Below, one piece after another: positions 1-6,373 of a stretch of 64,000 nt of DNA. How positions within the stretch are numbered: the first letter of the stretch is position 1; each line of letters begins with the position of its first letter. This stretch comes from Roseivirga seohaensis (GTDB taxonomy: Bacteria > Bacteroidota > Bacteroidia > Cytophagales > Cyclobacteriaceae): contig NZ_LRPB01000049.1 of the NCBI RefSeq assembly GCF_001592945.1, positions 124,001-188,000 on the forward strand, given 5' to 3'. The position numbers and the translations under genes are program-made. The notes under the pieces are model-generated. The model was not told the DNA's origin and did no database searches. It saw only the letters and a list, made by a program, of their open reading frames with translations.

Positions 1-1023
1 CGTATCTTTATTGAACTTGTATTTTACATTCTCCCATACTTCTTTTTCTACGGTACACATACCACCATGATCCAACTCTACTCTAATGATGGAGTCGGAT
101 AATCCAGCGACTATGCCCAAAGATCCATTGACCCATTGACCTTCTGGATTATTCTTAATAAACATGACCTGCGCACCAATTTTTAACTTAAGGTCTAAGT
201 CAGAGGGATACGCCACTGAATCAAAATTACCTGATATTTCCGCTCTGTAAAGCCGCGATTCTCCATCAAGTTCTGATAATTTGGATTGATTGATCTTTTG
301 GGAAGCGTCAAGCTTTGTGGTGAGAGTTAAAATGTGGTTTCCAGTTTCTGAGATTGGCACCGGTAGAACTCTGGAATTCAATTGATCCAGTTCTGCGTTA
401 GTTAATGTTTTAGTTCTAATCTTATCAAGAAGGCTTACAAAAAGTGGGTCTTTTTGACGATATACCTCTTTTAACTCGATAGTAAACAGTTTTAAATGCC
501 TGAAAACATGAGCTTGATAAAAACGTAGCCCTCCATAAATCTCATTAAGTGTCTGCGTTTCCTCATTTTTCCCTTGAACGATTGGTTCAAGTTGATATAA
601 GTCACCTACTAAGACTATCTGCTTACCTCCAAATGGCAAATTAGGGTTTCCTCCATTTTTCCGTAAAGAAAAGTCAATGGCATCAATCACATCTGCCCTG
701 ACCATTGAAGCTTCGTCTAAAATTAATGTGTCAAGTGATTCAATTAGCTTTCTCTTCTCCGAACCCTCCCAAAAGGTCTTAATTCCTTTGTCTTTGGGTA
801 AAAGAGGTCTTGGTGGAAATTGAAAAAACGAATGGATGGTAACCCCTTTTATATTAAGGGCAGAGATTCCAGTAGGGGCTAAAACAACAAAGTTCTTGTC
901 TATTTTGCGGGTGATTTTGCTTAGGAAAGTAGACTTTCCTGTACCTGCCCTTCCGGTGAGAAAAAAGGATAGGTTTGTGTTTTCCACAAAGTCAAATGCA
1001 GCATCAAATTCCGTATTGTTCAT
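1..1023 (-). CDS. Pif1-like DNA helicase, C-terminal part cut off by the left window edge
   Basis: The frame is open from an ATG at 1023 to position 1 with no stop (341 codons seen), so the gene continues to the left of the window. The translation has a Walker A motif near residues 24-32 (GRAGTGKST), the segment APTGISALN followed by TIHSFF, a Walker B segment LILDEAS, and the helicase motif III-like GDLYQLEPIV. These match the Pif1/RecD-like superfamily 1B helicases, which unwind DNA 5' to 3' and resolve structured DNA. It lies 60 bp downstream of the metallopeptidase-like gene on the same strand, so it may be the last visible gene of the Argonaute operon, or a separate neighbour. The Pif1-like assignment is firm; the link with the Argonaute is inferred from position only. 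Confidence 0.85.
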   Translation of the reverse strand, partial: MNNTEFDAAFDFVENTNLSFFLTGRAGTGKSTFLSKITRKIDKNFVVLAPTGISALNIKGVTIHSFFQFPPRPLLPKDKGIKTFWEGSEKRKLIESLDTLILDEASMVRADVIDAIDFSLRKNGGNPNLPFGGKQIVLVGDLYQLEPIVQGKNEETQTLNEIYGGLRFYQAHVFRHLKLFTIELKEVYRQKDPLFVSLLDKIRTKTLTNAELDQLNSRVLPVPISETGNHILTLTTKLDASQKINQSKLSELDGESRLYRAEISGNFDSVAYPSDLDLKLKIGAQVMFIKNNPEGQWVNGSLGIVAGLSDSIIRVELDHGGMCTVEKEVWENVKYKFNKDT

Positions 1024-1083
1024 TTTTATAGAAGCTCCTTATATAAATCAATTTCCAATACTCATCATGAAGGATAAATTTAA

Positions 1084-2220
1084 CTATACTTCCTTCTTTA
1101 ATAAGCTAACCATTTTCTGTTCATGTTCAGGAAAGCCAGTGGGGTTTTTCCAAAACTCTTTCCAGGCAGTATTCAATGTGTCTATTATCAGCGTATCTGT
1201 ATTGTCAGAAGCTATCTTGCACCCAAGCGCTTTAATGCCTTCCAGGCAATAAGTAGCTGCACTTTTTAAGAAATGATCAGGTAGAGCAATATGATATTCG
1301 GTTTCGGGAGAAATATCCAGAACTCCAACAAAGTCATTCCATTCTTTTTCTATTGCTGCTTTCTCTTGAGTAAAGCCCATTAAATCTAGTGCATGAAACA
1401 TAGTGGTCATTCTCGCACCAGCTGGTGGATGAGAGGTTTTTTGATAGTAAGGAACTCCAAAAAGATTCCAATCCATTTTCGCGCACATGTGAAGATTACT
1501 CCAGACAAAAGCTGGCCCCAGAGTATAGGTGGCAAACAGATCACAGAAAAACTCCTCAGCCCAGCTTTCTATCCAGCTGTCACGCCAGATATAATAAGGG
1601 CGTATGTTATTGCCATCACCGAACTTATTCAACTTAAGCCGGGCAATCTCTTGGGTAAAGTGTTTTTTTATATCTCGATTGAGTTGCCCCATACTGACCC
1701 TTATAGGTTCTGTAGTAGGGTTATCCACTGATATGAGAGGATGGCAAAGCTCGTGGTAGAGATCTGGAAGATGCAGCAGGAAGTCAGCTTCCAACAGCGG
1801 CATGCACATCAAATTATACTGTGGAAAAATTCTATAATAGTGCTGTGAAAGGCACGAAACCACAGGGGGCTGAATAGGGTATTCGATTTCTGAACAAACG
1901 CGTCTTACCAGCTTGTTGACATATTCATCATCATCATGTTTTCGGCTAATGGCTGCGACAATCACATTTTCCAAAACGTGAAGCTCGCTCAATATGGATT
2001 TGAACTTGCTGAATTTATGTAGTAAGTTCTGTGGTTTCGAATAGTCCTGATTGTAAAGCAAAGCTGAAAGCCTGTCTATCATCAATTCAATTTCGACCAT
2101 AGCTTTAGCGATCAATGGGTCAAAATACAAGCTCGACTCCTTAGCTCTGGGGAACTTACTTTTGAGTATTCTCGATTTTTGGATGCTTTCCATTATTGCA
2201 CCATCAATGTATTCAGTCAT
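1084..2220 (-). CDS. Zinc metallopeptidase-like protein (HExxH...ExxxD)
   Basis: The 378-residue protein has no signal peptide or obvious membrane segment, so it is probably cytoplasmic. It contains HELCH at residues 156-160, and about 60 residues later WAEEFFCD, which gives an ExxxD (E223, D227) typical of the third ligand helix of gluzincin metallopeptidases. These motifs are visible; protease activity is inferred. I do not recognise a named family. The first 110 residues are helical and charged, possibly an interaction domain. The start ATG overlaps the stop of the upstream small gene (ATGA, 2217-2220), indicating translational coupling within the Argonaute operon. It might be an effector cleaving a host or phage protein, or a catalytically altered scaffold. 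Confidence 0.6.
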   Translation of the reverse strand: MTEYIDGAIMESIQKSRILKSKFPRAKESSLYFDPLIAKAMVEIELMIDRLSALLYNQDYSKPQNLLHKFSKFKSILSELHVLENVIVAAISRKHDDDEYVNKLVRRVCSEIEYPIQPPVVSCLSQHYYRIFPQYNLMCMPLLEADFLLHLPDLYHELCHPLISVDNPTTEPIRVSMGQLNRDIKKHFTQEIARLKLNKFGDGNNIRPYYIWRDSWIESWAEEFFCDLFATYTLGPAFVWSNLHMCAKMDWNLFGVPYYQKTSHPPAGARMTTMFHALDLMGFTQEKAAIEKEWNDFVGVLDISPETEYHIALPDHFLKSAATYCLEGIKALGCKIASDNTDTLIIDTLNTAWKEFWKNPTGFPEHEQKMVSLLKKEV

Positions 2221-2588
2221 GATTCTTTGCTCATTTTAGCCAAGGCATGAGAATATTCACTGTCTAAGGCATTGACAACATGGTGTAAGTTCTTGGATAG
2301 CGATTCATATTTTTTTTGATTGATATCAGCCGCAATGCCATTAAAAAACTTGGACTTCGAGAAGTTCTTTTTCCTCAGCTCAGCCTCAATTATCACACTT
2401 AACACCTGAATTCTCGGGTCAATGCTCTCATCGTCTTTGAGCTTCTCAAACAACTCCTTAACTTCCTTATATTTCTCAGCAGGCACTTTTTCTGAGTCGT
2501 TCTTTATGGCGATCATAAAGTCGTTAAGTAGTCCCAAGTACTTACTTGTCAAGTAGTAGATATTGGCATTCAATCCTGTATCACTCAT
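2217..2588 (-). CDS. Small helical protein of unknown function in the Argonaute operon
   Basis: I do not recognise this 123-residue protein. It is highly charged, rich in Lys, Glu and Ser, has no cysteine, signal peptide or membrane segment, and reads as all-helical (for example EVKELFEKLKDD around residue 45). It starts 10 bp after the Argonaute stop codon and its own stop overlaps the metallopeptidase-like start by 4 bp, so the three genes are almost surely co-translated. Size and position would suit a partner or immunity-type protein for either neighbour, but that is inference from context only. Confidence 0.65.
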   Translation of the reverse strand: MSDTGLNANIYYLTSKYLGLLNDFMIAIKNDSEKVPAEKYKEVKELFEKLKDDESIDPRIQVLSVIIEAELRKKNFSKSKFFNGIAADINQKKYESLSKNLHHVVNALDSEYSHALAKMSKES

Positions 2589-2598
2589 GTCTGTATGT

Positions 2599-5028
2599 CT
2601 ATTGATTAATGGATTTCATTAAATTGATCTTTTGAGAATTATAGGAACTCCCCAAAAGGTTGATTCTCCTGTCCGTCATTTTGATGGTTATTGGGTTTCG
2701 CGAACAGTCATCAGGTTTGGTATAGGCAAGATGAGATAAAAAGAATATGTCCTCCAGTACATTTTTGAAAGGCATAGAACCAGAAACATGTTTTACGTAT
2801 AATGGCTTGGAAGTTCCTTTTTTACTATACTCCCTGCCTGTAGTGCATACGTAGGCTTCATAATCGTTAAGGAGTGCATAGGTTCCCATTTGAGGATTAA
2901 GAACTTTGCCATTGTCCTCATGTTCCTTCCAGATGTCAAAAGTTTTTGTGACGTCAAATAAGCGGAAAGGCACTTTGGATTTTTTTGGTATTTCAACAAC
3001 TGTATATGAGGTGTCGGGAGGCAAGGTTCCTGTTTCAACTAGAAGTTTGATAGCGCTCTCTATACCCGCTTTTTCGGTTTGAAAGATGCGTCCATCTCTA
3101 TGGAAAGTGATTGTTTTGATTGGTTGATCTGAGAACTCCGCAAATTTTGTGATATTTTCAACAAGAATCCGGCTCACTTGATCTGAAGAAAGCTTTTCCT
3201 TGTTCTGTGATTTGTCCCAAGCGGGTAGAATGTTCTTAGAATACTTATCTACAAATGTGAATCCGGCTATATGTTGCTTAACATCAATTCCAATTACCAA
3301 ATCGGCATGGAGAGGGGTGGCTAGAATAAAGGGCCACCGCTCATTGTTGAGAAGAACCTGGTTAACGGCCACTCCAAAAAGGTAACCTTGATATAGCCTT
3401 TCAAGTTTTTTGTTTTCACCTCTTTTGATATAATACTTGGACTCCCCATTTACCTCTTCATGCCCATAACATTTTTCGAGTATTCTGGTGTGCATAATGC
3501 TCGCACTAACATTGTAATCATTCAAGCATTCCGAGACTACCAATGCAGCGGTTTCATCATGCATCTTTTTATTTCTCTCCAAATGGCTTGGTAGGATTAC
3601 TACAGCATAACCTTCCAGCATCATAGTGGTGTTTTCACCTAGTTTTGAAATAATTTCTAGGCCAATATCCAAGGAATTGGTTTTGTTTCTATCATCATAC
3701 GGTACAACTATGGGTTTCCATCCCGAGCTCGTGGGGTGCATTTTATCTACCATGGCAGCAAGGTCTTTCAAGAAATACTTCTCGTTGCCGAAGCTGTTGT
3801 GTATGGTTTCTGGCACAAGTATATATTGTCTGGTAAATGGAGCATTGGTATAAAAACCGACTTTGGGCGAAAGCAATAATTTCTTCCTTTCCATTCCAAG
3901 TTTTTGCTTTTCTACGCGAAGATTGGCTTTACTGGAGGTTTCGCATCCCAGAACTATATCGTTATTGAACTGAAGGTCCGGAAAGTCAAACAGACCTAAG
4001 TCTGGGCTTAAGGGAGTTGTGGAAATCTGAATTTGTACATTACCATGCTTTAACTTATTCAAATACTTTGAGATTACTGTGCTGCTATACTTTCTTCTGA
4101 AAAACGGAGGTATGATGGAAGCCCTGTGTAATCTACTTACCTCTCTATCTTCCGTATCATAGGTAGCATAGCACATAGCGGCCACAGCTCCTTTAGGTTG
4201 TTTTTCATTGTTCCGATAAACTAAAACAGAGGCACTATCTGGAATCTTGGCTAAGTGGGGAGGCATAGTTCCATTGTAGATTTTTCGAATATCATCAAGT
4301 AAAGTCACAGAGCCCGATTCTCTTTTGAAACGATATTTGGAGATATCCAAGCTACTGAGTTCGTCTGGTTTGATCTCAAACCAGTTTTTGCCGTAGCGGT
4401 AAACCAGCCTTCTTTTCTGTCTTTTGAGGTTGTTGAATTCGGCATTGGAAAGGTGCGCGCGTAAGGGGTTTTTGGCCATGTACTTTTTGGTGATATCTAC
4501 ACAAATCCCATATCCACCAGTAGGCAATGCCACAACACGAGGTATAAATCCATTGAAGATAGCAACTTGGTTTGACCCTGCATTTCGTGCTGGTTCTTTG
4601 CTATAAAAGGCATCACCTGTTCGTGGCTGCCATAAGCGTGGGTCTTTTCTTATCTCACCCGAAAGGTCAAACTGCAAAAAGCGTAGGATGATCTGTTTTT
4701 CTGATTCATCCTCACTTTCAAAATCAAGAAACCTTACCTGATCGGTATCTTTAAAATAAACAAAATCACCATATTTTGCTTCCAAACCATCATTCGGGAT
4801 AGCCCGTAAAATCTCTGCTTCATCTTTCACAATCAAGAAAGGTATGCCCTCACGGTGAATGACGATAACGGGATGTCTTAGGGAATAGGAAAGCTTTTTG
4901 GTGATATACTGTATGTTGATATCATAATCATCTCCTGTGCTGTTAAGGCCGATAATTTCCAAAAGTCTATAGTCAGCTGATAAGGCCGATAGATTCTCAA
5001 TTGGGAAAATGTTGCTTTCTTTAATCAT
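2599..5028 (-). CDS. Long prokaryotic Argonaute (PIWI-domain) protein with apparent DEDD tetrad
   Basis: Long prokaryotic Argonautes use a short guide strand to bind, and if active cut, a target nucleic acid. The C-terminal third is a PIWI domain. With the ATG at 5028 as residue 1, the apparent catalytic residues are D582 (IGIDVK), E611 (KEKLSSDQV, glutamate-finger position), D645 (HRDGR) and D786 (KMTDRRIN). Their spacing is close to that of active Thermus Argonaute. A MID-like region precedes it (about 415-570), and roughly 400 N-terminal residues could hold N and PAZ-like domains that I cannot delimit. An upstream in-frame ATG at 5118 would add 30 residues but overlap the nuclease gene by 89 bp, in its conserved cysteine region. 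I prefer 5028, which follows the nuclease stop codon by one base. The MID lysine usually seen before GG.PW is not obvious here (LLNNERWPF), so guide-end binding may differ. Confidence 0.85.
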   Translation of the reverse strand: MIKESNIFPIENLSALSADYRLLEIIGLNSTGDDYDINIQYITKKLSYSLRHPVIVIHREGIPFLIVKDEAEILRAIPNDGLEAKYGDFVYFKDTDQVRFLDFESEDESEKQIILRFLQFDLSGEIRKDPRLWQPRTGDAFYSKEPARNAGSNQVAIFNGFIPRVVALPTGGYGICVDITKKYMAKNPLRAHLSNAEFNNLKRQKRRLVYRYGKNWFEIKPDELSSLDISKYRFKRESGSVTLLDDIRKIYNGTMPPHLAKIPDSASVLVYRNNEKQPKGAVAAMCYATYDTEDREVSRLHRASIIPPFFRRKYSSTVISKYLNKLKHGNVQIQISTTPLSPDLGLFDFPDLQFNNDIVLGCETSSKANLRVEKQKLGMERKKLLLSPKVGFYTNAPFTRQYILVPETIHNSFGNEKYFLKDLAAMVDKMHPTSSGWKPIVVPYDDRNKTNSLDIGLEIISKLGENTTMMLEGYAVVILPSHLERNKKMHDETAALVVSECLNDYNVSASIMHTRILEKCYGHEEVNGESKYYIKRGENKKLERLYQGYLFGVAVNQVLLNNERWPFILATPLHADLVIGIDVKQHIAGFTFVDKYSKNILPAWDKSQNKEKLSSDQVSRILVENITKFAEFSDQPIKTITFHRDGRIFQTEKAGIESAIKLLVETGTLPPDTSYTVVEIPKKSKVPFRLFDVTKTFDIWKEHEDNGKVLNPQMGTYALLNDYEAYVCTTGREYSKKGTSKPLYVKHVSGSMPFKNVLEDIFFLSHLAYTKPDDCSRNPITIKMTDRRINLLGSSYNSQKINLMKSINQ

Positions 5029-5029
5029 A

Positions 5030-5956
5030 TCAATCGGGTTTGCAAATTGGTTTAAAAGAACAATTACCACAGGCCGATGGGTCGGTTGTGGTCGGGAATT
5101 CCTCTGGGGAACATTCACTAAATTTTCGATTAGCTCCTAATCGGTACATCTTTAAAAGACCTGTGGCGATTTCGTCTTCGGTATTCCTAATGTCATCTTG
5201 GGTGATTTCATAATCACGGGACTCATCGGTAAGCAGTTGAAACTCGGTCAACCTGTAGTCAAGCACGCTATAGCTTTTCAAATTCGCTGGAAAATCCTTA
5301 TGAGGGTTTACTTTGCTCAGCGAAAATGCATAGGCCAGTAACTGATCTTGGTACGTTTTAGTAGCAAAAGTGTGAACCTTCCAATCAATAATGTGCGGTG
5401 GTTCATCTTCAAAAAACAGGATTAAATCTGGACGGCCGATTACCCGAAACCTACTGAAAGGGAGGGAAAGTGTCCGTTGGGTTAGCCATTGATCGGCCGT
5501 GCGTAAATACTCAATTAAATCTTCCCTTTCTATGAAATTCTTGAGGGCTTGATGTGTATCGTTTCTAACGCGTTGTAATTCGCTTTCTGCTATTCCTTTA
5601 TCGTTATCAAAATCAATAATCGCTGAAAAATCATCATAATCTGAAAACACAATGTTGGGTTCACGGTATTTCTTTTTTCTGGCAAAATCGAGTCTTTCAT
5701 CAAACTTTCTGTTGGCTACCCATAACAAGGTATCCTCGTGCAAGCTCTCTTTCTTACGAATTCTACTGATCGCTACCTGACCTATAACTTCATCAACAAT
5801 ATCTCCTCTCCAGGCATCAAGTGTCTTTAGTTTGGAAAGGATTGTCACTTCCCTGCGAAAAGGATCTTTGACCGTTCCGTGCGCTACAATATTTTTATAG
5901 TACCATTGACGGTTACATTTGAGAAATTGCCTATATCCAGAGTATGACCAATTCAT
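5030..5956 (-). CDS. Cas4/RecB-like PD-(D/E)XK nuclease with four cluster-type cysteines
   Basis: The 308-residue protein has the RecB-nuclease motifs in order: GRPD (D177), IIDWK (D191, K193) and a QLLAYA motif near 205-210. One cysteine lies near the N-terminus (C14 in FLKCNRQWYY) and three near the C-terminus (C296, C299, C305 in CGNCSFKPIC). That arrangement matches the 4Fe-4S cluster of Cas4 and AddB, so DNA exonuclease or end-processing activity is likely. The gene is 2 bp downstream of the XRE regulator and ends one base before the preferred Argonaute start. In an Argonaute operon a plausible inferred role is guide generation or target degradation. The histidine often found in motif I is an aspartate here (GDIVDEVI). 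Confidence 0.8.
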   Translation of the reverse strand: MNWSYSGYRQFLKCNRQWYYKNIVAHGTVKDPFRREVTILSKLKTLDAWRGDIVDEVIGQVAISRIRKKESLHEDTLLWVANRKFDERLDFARKKKYREPNIVFSDYDDFSAIIDFDNDKGIAESELQRVRNDTHQALKNFIEREDLIEYLRTADQWLTQRTLSLPFSRFRVIGRPDLILFFEDEPPHIIDWKVHTFATKTYQDQLLAYAFSLSKVNPHKDFPANLKSYSVLDYRLTEFQLLTDESRDYEITQDDIRNTEDEIATGLLKMYRLGANRKFSECSPEEFPTTTDPSACGNCSFKPICKPD

Positions 5957-5958
5957 TA

Positions 5959-6303
5959 TTATGACTTTCTGTTCCTGATGAATTTTAGATACTGAAGAAG
6001 TTCTACTTCTTCTTCATTGCTTATCTCACCAAGTTTATTTTTAGCAGCTGATGAAATGCTCTGGTCTTTTGGCAGAGCATTGCTTTTAGAAACCGGATAG
6101 CCCACTTTTTCCATTAGCATTTCATAAGAAACCTGATAAAATTTGGCAAGTCTATATAGGGTATTGGGTGATGGTTGCTTGACTTTACCAGATTCCAATT
6201 GGCTCAGATAAGCATTTGACACATCTGTCTGACGTTCCACCTCTCTTAAGGTCGCTCCTTTTGATTCTCTGAGGGCTTTGAAATATTGACCATATCCATC
6301 CAT
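5959..6303 (-). CDS. XRE-family helix-turn-helix regulator of the Argonaute operon
   Basis: This 114-residue protein has a classical Cro/C1-type HTH over about residues 8-64 (LRESKGATLREVERQTDVS, then YLSQLESG). The acidic helical C-terminal tail may serve dimerisation. It is the first gene of the operon and ends 2 bp before the nuclease gene. Two copies of a 20-bp dyad lie immediately upstream and overlap the promoter elements, which strongly suggests autoregulation and repression of the whole operon. Such a regulator commonly controls defence loci whose products are toxic when expressed constitutively. The DNA-binding assignment is firm; the control role is inferred from the operator layout. 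Confidence 0.88.
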   Translation of the reverse strand: MDGYGQYFKALRESKGATLREVERQTDVSNAYLSQLESGKVKQPSPNTLYRLAKFYQVSYEMLMEKVGYPVSKSNALPKDQSISSAAKNKLGEISNEEEVELLQYLKFIRNRKS

Positions 6304-6321
6304 TGCTTAAAAATTGTTTCG

Positions 6322-6373
6322 TTGCTAAATATCGCAAGCAAATATATGTAGCTTTGCTTGATATCGCAAGCAA
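6322..6373 (-). promoter_or_regulatory. Promoter with tandem XRE operators
   Basis: Two 20-bp dyads, TTGCTAAATATCGCAAGCAA (6322-6341) and TTGCTTGATATCGCAAGCAA (6354-6373), differ at two positions and are 32 bp apart centre to centre, about three helical turns. On the minus strand a TATATTTG -7 element (6339-6346) overlaps the first dyad. A TTG -33 element (6367-6369) lies 20 bp further upstream inside the second dyad. Repressor binding would therefore block both promoter elements. The leader to the ATG at 6303 would be about 30 nt. Confidence 0.75.

Follow-up and report, generated by a model that had tools for sequence, protein, structure and literature searches.

Prokaryotic Argonautes (pAgos) that use a DNA guide to cut an RNA target, the D-R pAgos, have been described in two groups. 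In that of PliAgo a DEDD Argonaute is accompanied by an upstream Cas4-like nuclease and a helix-turn-helix (HTH) regulator, and in that of PnyAgo a sigma-70 factor takes the place of the HTH regulator (PMC9360449). Their cellular role was left open by the paper describing them. We analysed a 64,000-nucleotide stretch of the Roseivirga seohaensis genome (contig NZ_LRPB01000049.1, positions 124,001 to 188,000 of the forward strand; hereafter the window), which carries an operon of this type on the minus strand of positions 1-6303. Its genes run in the order XRE-type regulator, Cas4-like nuclease (NUC), long Argonaute (AGO), small protein (SML), HExxH protein (HEX) and Pif1-like helicase (Table 1). 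A first-pass annotation knew of no described system that couples a long Argonaute to a metallopeptidase-like protein and a small partner. It read the locus as a defence system in which nuclease and helicase process DNA for the Argonaute and the peptidase-like protein is effector or switch, a reading that is partly supported. Its proposal of DNA processing for the Argonaute is among the unsupported parts, the predicted target being RNA. Argonaute, nuclease and regulator types are those of the published D-R operons; SML and HEX were found named nowhere as partners, and the regulatory elements mapped below are new. In the text of PMC9360449 considered here, nuclease and regulator (HTH or sigma) are named but neither the small nor the HExxH gene, both of which may be drawn in its Fig. 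1b or supplement; since it states that operons within each group have the same gene composition, those two genes may already have been noticed by its authors. The persistence of SML and HEX beside the Argonaute across distant bacteria suggests a possible partnership between an Argonaute and a protease.

The closely spaced order NUC-AGO-SML-HEX recurs in 18 loci of three phyla, which span Bacteroidota, one Rhizobium (Alphaproteobacteria) plasmid and one cyanobacterial plasmid. These are the window, Algoriphagus, a Balneolaceae genome, UBA7330, nine further genomes (G046, G035, G347, G425, G242, G598, G906, G793 and G960) and five plasmids (from Runella, Spirosoma, Emticicia, Rhizobium and a cyanobacterium). 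SML occupies the same place in 18/18 cassettes, in L028 and L037 as judged by position, the first SML profile having missed it there. Of 15 loci measured, 12 show an overlap of SML and HEX and 10 an overlap of NUC and AGO, with start codons partly chosen by hand. The tree distances of the four proteins are strongly correlated (r 0.90-0.97; 0.958 for Argonaute and HEX; 15 of the 18 loci), and 0 of 2000 permutations reach the observed value for any of the six protein pairs. Since the very divergent L028 raises r and some branches differ, this correlation speaks for travel as a unit and not for contact. The view of all six genes as one unit needs to be narrowed: the four-gene order stands, but the helicase lies beside just 5 of the 18 cassettes and is accessory, not core.

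Most of these loci were found through HEX, and therefore a fair test of association has to start from the Argonaute. Argonaute queries independent of HEX gave 12 full-length finds (7 genomes and 5 plasmids), every one with HEX adjacent. The PADLOC model pAgo_II matches 7 of 395 Bacteroidota genomes, all of them within the 8 that match HEX (whose model drew sequences from 4 of those 8: G000, G104, G046 and G035), and the two genes stand 0.4-0.9 kb apart in the 7. In a set of 72,556 plasmid records, 11 match the window Argonaute; the 5 that are covered over more than 80% are exactly the 5 matching HEX, and the other 6, with only 24-28% of the query covered, have no HEX match. The L009 Argonaute retrieved 6 plasmid matches, namely the same 5 and one partial. 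An Argonaute profile run against 395 genomes of the class gave 9 matches, of which 6 are full-length, all with HEX, and 3 are weak PIWI-only matches (open reading frames of 512-530 aa) without it; the profile adds one genome (G598), and as it was built with all 6 full-length members, its only message is that no other full-length Argonaute lacking HEX came up. No full-length Argonaute of the D-R kind was seen without HEX among those searched, and the earlier proposal that the small and HExxH genes are fixed partners in a real multi-gene system is upheld.

NUC matches Pfam PDDEXK_1 (6.5e-15) and PADLOC Aga_Cas4-like_Nuc (1.2e-133), and its D177, D191, K193 and Q205 are invariant among 6 aligned sequences, as are Cys 14, 296, 299 and 305. 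As in Cas4 and AddB, these four cysteines could hold an Fe-S cluster. AGO scores 1111.5 bits against pAgo_II, lies close to PliAgo (PDB 7r8f, E 1.3e-101) and shares 45.7% identity with the Argonaute encoded on the Runella slithyformis plasmid pRUNSL03 (WP_013921749.1). That protein is RslAgo, which sits in the same cassette, and AGO groups with the Runella locus (L036) in the protein tree. The DEDD tetrad (D582, E611, D645, D786) is invariant in 15/15 aligned Argonautes, so that AGO does not share the inactive PIWI domain of Long-B pAgos with effectors. In the MID pocket the counterparts of PliAgo H498 and Y530 are H513 and Y549, whereas R467 faces H and S501 faces I as counted in the alignment, which leaves two of the four RHSY letters in agreement; just H and Y are called absolutely conserved (PMC9360449). 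RslAgo is one of four proteins shown in vitro to be DNA-guided RNA nucleases, and such cleavage was also demonstrated for PliAgo (PMC9360449). Because AGO is close to both, it is predicted to be a D-R pAgo of the PliAgo group with RNA as its target.

The two partner proteins are less readily classified. Window SML has only sub-cut-off matches in Pfam and NCBIfam and none in PADLOC (E ≤ 1) or PHROGs; window HEX has a single Pfam match below cut-off, which does not cover the HExxH motif, and NCBIfam, PADLOC (E ≤ 1) and PHROGs gave no match. The HExxH (1741-1755; HELCH, residues 156-160), ExxxD (1540-1554; residues 223-227) and HPxxxxR (1411-1431) motifs are invariant in 16/16 aligned HEX members, some of which are just 18-23% identical to window HEX. 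This trio is a pattern of M48 gluzincins. Peptidase_M48 (PF01435) is touched by 1 of the 16 members (E 0.011; 16.0 bits vs. a cut-off of 20.3), and window HEX itself has no M48 match and does not reach the Pfam cut-off. M78 (ImmA/IrrE) gave no match for window HEX and is not among the families listed for the 16 members. For the HEX that adjoins RslAgo, a PADLOC candidate model matches at 0.0052 in a region that excludes the HExxH motif. Structure models, each built on 4 sequences (window and L003-L005) of at least 16, had predicted local distance difference test (pLDDT) values of 49.9 for HEX and 61.5 for SML, and a Foldseek search with the former was uninformative (all 266 matches at E ≤ 10 had E values above 0.001). 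A 16-sequence HEX profile gave 16 matches up to E 10 against the PDB, the best of which (2.6e-4) is a designed helical repeat outside the HExxH region. Judged from the conserved motifs, HEX is likely to be a peptidase.

Of the 18 cassettes, 17 begin with a regulator of the HTH or sigma kind, namely an XRE gene in 8 and a sigma-type gene with a partner in 9. These types fit the two groups of PMC9360449. Two sites of the form TGCTTG-N6-YWAGCA lie before the window XRE gene, against 0.01 expected in the window, and 0 of 100 shuffles reach this count. The pair recurs at 32-bp spacing before XRE in 6 of the 8 XRE loci with at most one mismatch per site; the Rhizobium locus (L037) has one site and L028 none. 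A third match, the sole other exact one in the genome itself, lies inside a FecR-like coding gene, was taken as chance and was rejected as a further target. In the sigma-type loci, TGTAACC precedes the sigma gene in 8/8, and in 1000 shuffles no 7-mer was common to more than 6. Two later sigma loci also carry it, L075 only if the start is an inner ATG and not the TTG of the longest open reading frame. The natural reading of these sequences is that the paired sites are XRE operators and that TGTAACC is a site of sigma autoregulation. A tighter promoter pattern, run over 6 genomes, returned 2 sites, each at the genome's own sigma gene; it missed the known elements of the other 4 and so was drawn too tightly to say much about other targets. 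The sigma partner has a weakly XRE-like stretch (hhalign probability about 50%). On the Spirosoma oryzicola plasmid NZ_CP089544.1 a second sigma-promoter-like element (L038:3914, minus strand) faces a divergent multiubiquitin/ThiF/DUF6527 operon, a trio of genes that recurs after HEX in the Runella locus (L036); a single regulator may drive two defence-like operons.

Our preferred interpretation, held tentatively and a little short of probable, is that the locus is a horizontally moving defence cassette in which a D-R Argonaute is joined to a protease-controlled transcription switch. XRE, or in the sister group the sigma factor with its partner, would set operon expression. The Cas4-like nuclease might help make DNA guides from invading DNA or degrade that DNA, roles also proposed in PMC9360449, and the Argonaute would then find and cut matching invader RNA, as others observed in vitro for RslAgo and PliAgo. 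The proteolytic steps that we infer would follow: RNA recognition, or nucleic acid itself, would activate HEX, held or tethered by SML, and HEX would cut the co-encoded HTH protein or sigma partner and thereby raise operon expression. That substrate is suggested by analogy with the type III-E CRISPR system CASP, where Csx29 cleaves Csx30, a sigma inhibitor, on binding of target RNA and so frees a sigma factor (PMC10028731). A narrower version, in which Argonaute-bound target RNA itself switches on HEX-SML to cut a repressor or sigma inhibitor, making a DNA-guided, RNA-activated protease, is by the same analogy conceivable but rather unlikely. If true, it would turn invader transcription into a transcriptional alarm and make the cassette an Argonaute counterpart of Csx29 that evolved on its own, with SML-HEX as a portable module able to serve loci without an Argonaute.

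In favour of a switch we count the fixed cassette with its 12/12 Argonaute-first finds, the known D-R pAgo of the Runella cassette, the invariant HEX motifs, the regulators before 17 of 18 cassettes with their operator pairs or TGTAACC elements, and the precedent of Csx29. In addition, the regulators stay with SML and HEX in L027, a locus in G445 (L027:8576-11833) that encodes a sigma factor, its partner, a 136-aa protein, SML and HEX and has lost NUC and AGO. L027 belongs with the sigma-type loci and carries TGTAACC upstream of its sigma gene, and the G445 genome has no pAgo_II match. Its 136-aa protein resembles a GIY-YIG protein by eye alone, which Pfam, PHROGs and PADLOC do not support, and no such claim is made. 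L027 is the exception among genomes with full-length HEX, the Argonaute adjoining it in 11 of 12. Several observations weigh against a switch. HEX has no confident family or fold, as described above; one cassette (L039) has no adjacent regulator; the match of window XRE to PADLOC capH (2.4e-11) is one of several generic HTH matches, others such as HTH_VI (6e-10) being nearly as good; and the sigma partner bears only a weak resemblance to XRE. In addition, remote HEX relatives (E about 2e-8) occur in G543 and G689, which have no D-R Argonaute at E ≤ 1e-6. Together with L027, these relatives indicate that SML-HEX can stand without the Argonaute.

The strongest competitor, to which we give clearly less credence than to the switch, is that HEX-SML is an effector: SML or the Argonaute would keep the peptidase quiet until invader RNA is recognised, after which host or phage proteins would be cut and the infection aborted. 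The frequent overlap of SML and HEX noted above is in keeping with this, and toxin-inhibitor gene pairs often overlap. The occurrence of SML-HEX without an Argonaute also agrees with it, and other pAgo systems employ associated effectors (PMC10620215). However, effector-dependent pAgos are described as inactive (PMC10620215), and the tetrad is intact in all 15 Argonautes here; moreover, L027 keeps its regulators with SML-HEX. Two further proposals are each improbable. HEX might act as a maturase that cuts, and so activates or loads, the nuclease or the Argonaute, as proteases activate pro-nucleases in the Hachiman, AVAST and canu loci, where nuclease-protease pairs recur in immune systems (PMC12799240). 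Against this, RslAgo and PliAgo show activity with no partner present when they are produced in E. coli (PMC9360449), and L027 retains HEX in the absence of both proposed substrates. Alternatively, HEX might have no protease role here and instead bind metal as a structural or regulatory subunit, for which SML would serve as adaptor. This would accommodate the lack of a confident peptidase family and the sub-cut-off M48 score in a single member, but not readily the invariance of the catalytic glutamate and all motif residues across divergent sequences. A chance cluster of unrelated genes can be dismissed even though several plasmid cassettes stand among other defence-like genes, where genes mix: the first-pass annotation had expected homologous loci in that case mostly to lack SML and HEX, and the common order in 18 loci and the 12/12 Argonaute-first finds indicate a real, conserved and mobile operon. 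Of the two roles, effector or switch, that the first-pass annotation offered for the peptidase-like protein, we favour the switch.

The window operon has the compact layout that the first-pass annotation described, with gaps of 1 bp between NUC and AGO and 10 bp between AGO and SML, and a 4-bp overlap of SML and HEX. The helicase begins 60 bp after HEX and is truncated by the window edge (full protein 738 aa, L002:10807-13023). The AGO start was taken as an ATG, the listed 839-aa open reading frame beginning at an upstream GTG (5118).

Table 1. Features of the Argonaute operon, in window positions.
Feature	Position	Strand	Basis or remark
XRE-type HTH regulator, 114 aa	5959..6303	-	Pfam HTH_3 2.6e-12
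NUC, Cas4-like PD-(D/E)XK nuclease, 308 aa	5030..5956	-	Pfam and PADLOC
AGO, long Argonaute, 809 aa, predicted DNA-guided RNA nuclease	2599..5028	-	PADLOC pAgo_II
SML, small protein, 123 aa	2217..2588	-	predicted mostly helical, low confidence
HEX, HExxH protein, 378 aa, putative gluzincin-type metallopeptidase	1084..2220	-	motifs
Pif1-like helicase, N-terminal part, accessory	1..1023	-	Pfam PIF1 1.1e-29
Presumed XRE operator 1, palindromic TGCTTG-N6-CAAGCA	6355..6372	-	
Presumed XRE operator 2, TGCTTG-N6-TTAGCA, 32 bp on	6323..6340	-	

G+C content is 0.39-0.40 in the first 6 kb of the window and 0.45 in the next 4 kb; as a mark of acquisition this was set aside as weak, since the content at 10-12 kb itself drops to 0.36. 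For comparison with an empty site in the genus no orthologous site was at hand, as relatives of the flanking transporter were only 23-29% identical among the matches listed. Further along (window:10154-14220), three genes were noted by eye: one with ends like those of heavy-metal-binding and AraC proteins, one resembling a nucleotidyltransferase and one resembling a copper P-type ATPase. Other cassettes also have distinctive neighbours. Conjugative-transfer-looking genes, recognised by eye, directly follow the cassette in G035 (L009:9679-20000); a PtuA/PtuB-like (Septu) pair lies on the opposite strand right after HEX in L008 (11482-13594); an ATPase and a small gene of like appearance follow HEX in L026, L038 and L040; and a protein kinase gene (Pfam Pkinase 1.6e-30) and one resembling a phosphatase (L028:3702-5731) are oriented divergently to the most distant cassette, that of G242. 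The remote HEX relative of G543 (L042:7269-9391; 397 aa, PHROG 24479 at 5e-29) is flanked by a 101-aa gene and, by eye, a dCTP-deaminase-like gene, and this locus is possibly another small-HEX pair with a different partner. The window Argonaute had no match in phages, and viral_contigs, in scans resting on few short patterns, held no relative of HEX or of two Argonaute queries.

An HTH repressor and an HExxH protein share one operon in CapH/CapP and ImmR/ImmA, and CapP and ImmA are M78 peptidases; the cassette has a similar layout, but window HEX lacks an M78 match. Nuclease and protease travel together through Hachiman, AVAST and canu immune loci as the nuclease and putative protease do here, although those pairs join trypsin-like or caspase-family proteases to an MBL-type nuclease (PMC12799240). 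CalpL/CalpT/CalpS likewise places a protease in the transcriptional signalling cascade of an RNA-sensing defence, but its protease is a Lon protease activated by cA4, and the system has no Argonaute (PMC11417357). As for pAgos, a survey reported no consensus operon for their groups except the MID-OH group (PMC6299218); the words "protease" and "peptidase" are absent from its main text, its hydrolase orthogroups falling outside that word check. Among the literature titles and abstracts listed we found none pairing a metallopeptidase with a D-R Argonaute, in a search that left subscription papers, preprints, figures and supplements mostly outside, and the pairing may already be in print. That SML and HEX accompany all full-length D-R finds made here, with mapped elements before the regulators, gives the role of these Argonautes a testable shape. 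Among the closest known systems is CASP (Cas7-11-Csx29-Csx30-sigma), which, like the layout proposed here for the sigma-type cassettes, brings an RNA-targeting nuclease, a protease, a sigma factor and a candidate inhibitor together in one locus, and whose sigma factor has sites in its own locus (PMC10028731), as the TGTAACC elements would be. The cassette differs in having an Argonaute for Cas7-11 and an HExxH protein for the CHAT protease, and in lacking a sigma gene in its XRE type. Should the Argonaute control HEX, a coupling of guided RNA sensing to proteolysis would exist that arose outside CRISPR, and one could envisage using a DNA-guided protease switch to detect RNA.

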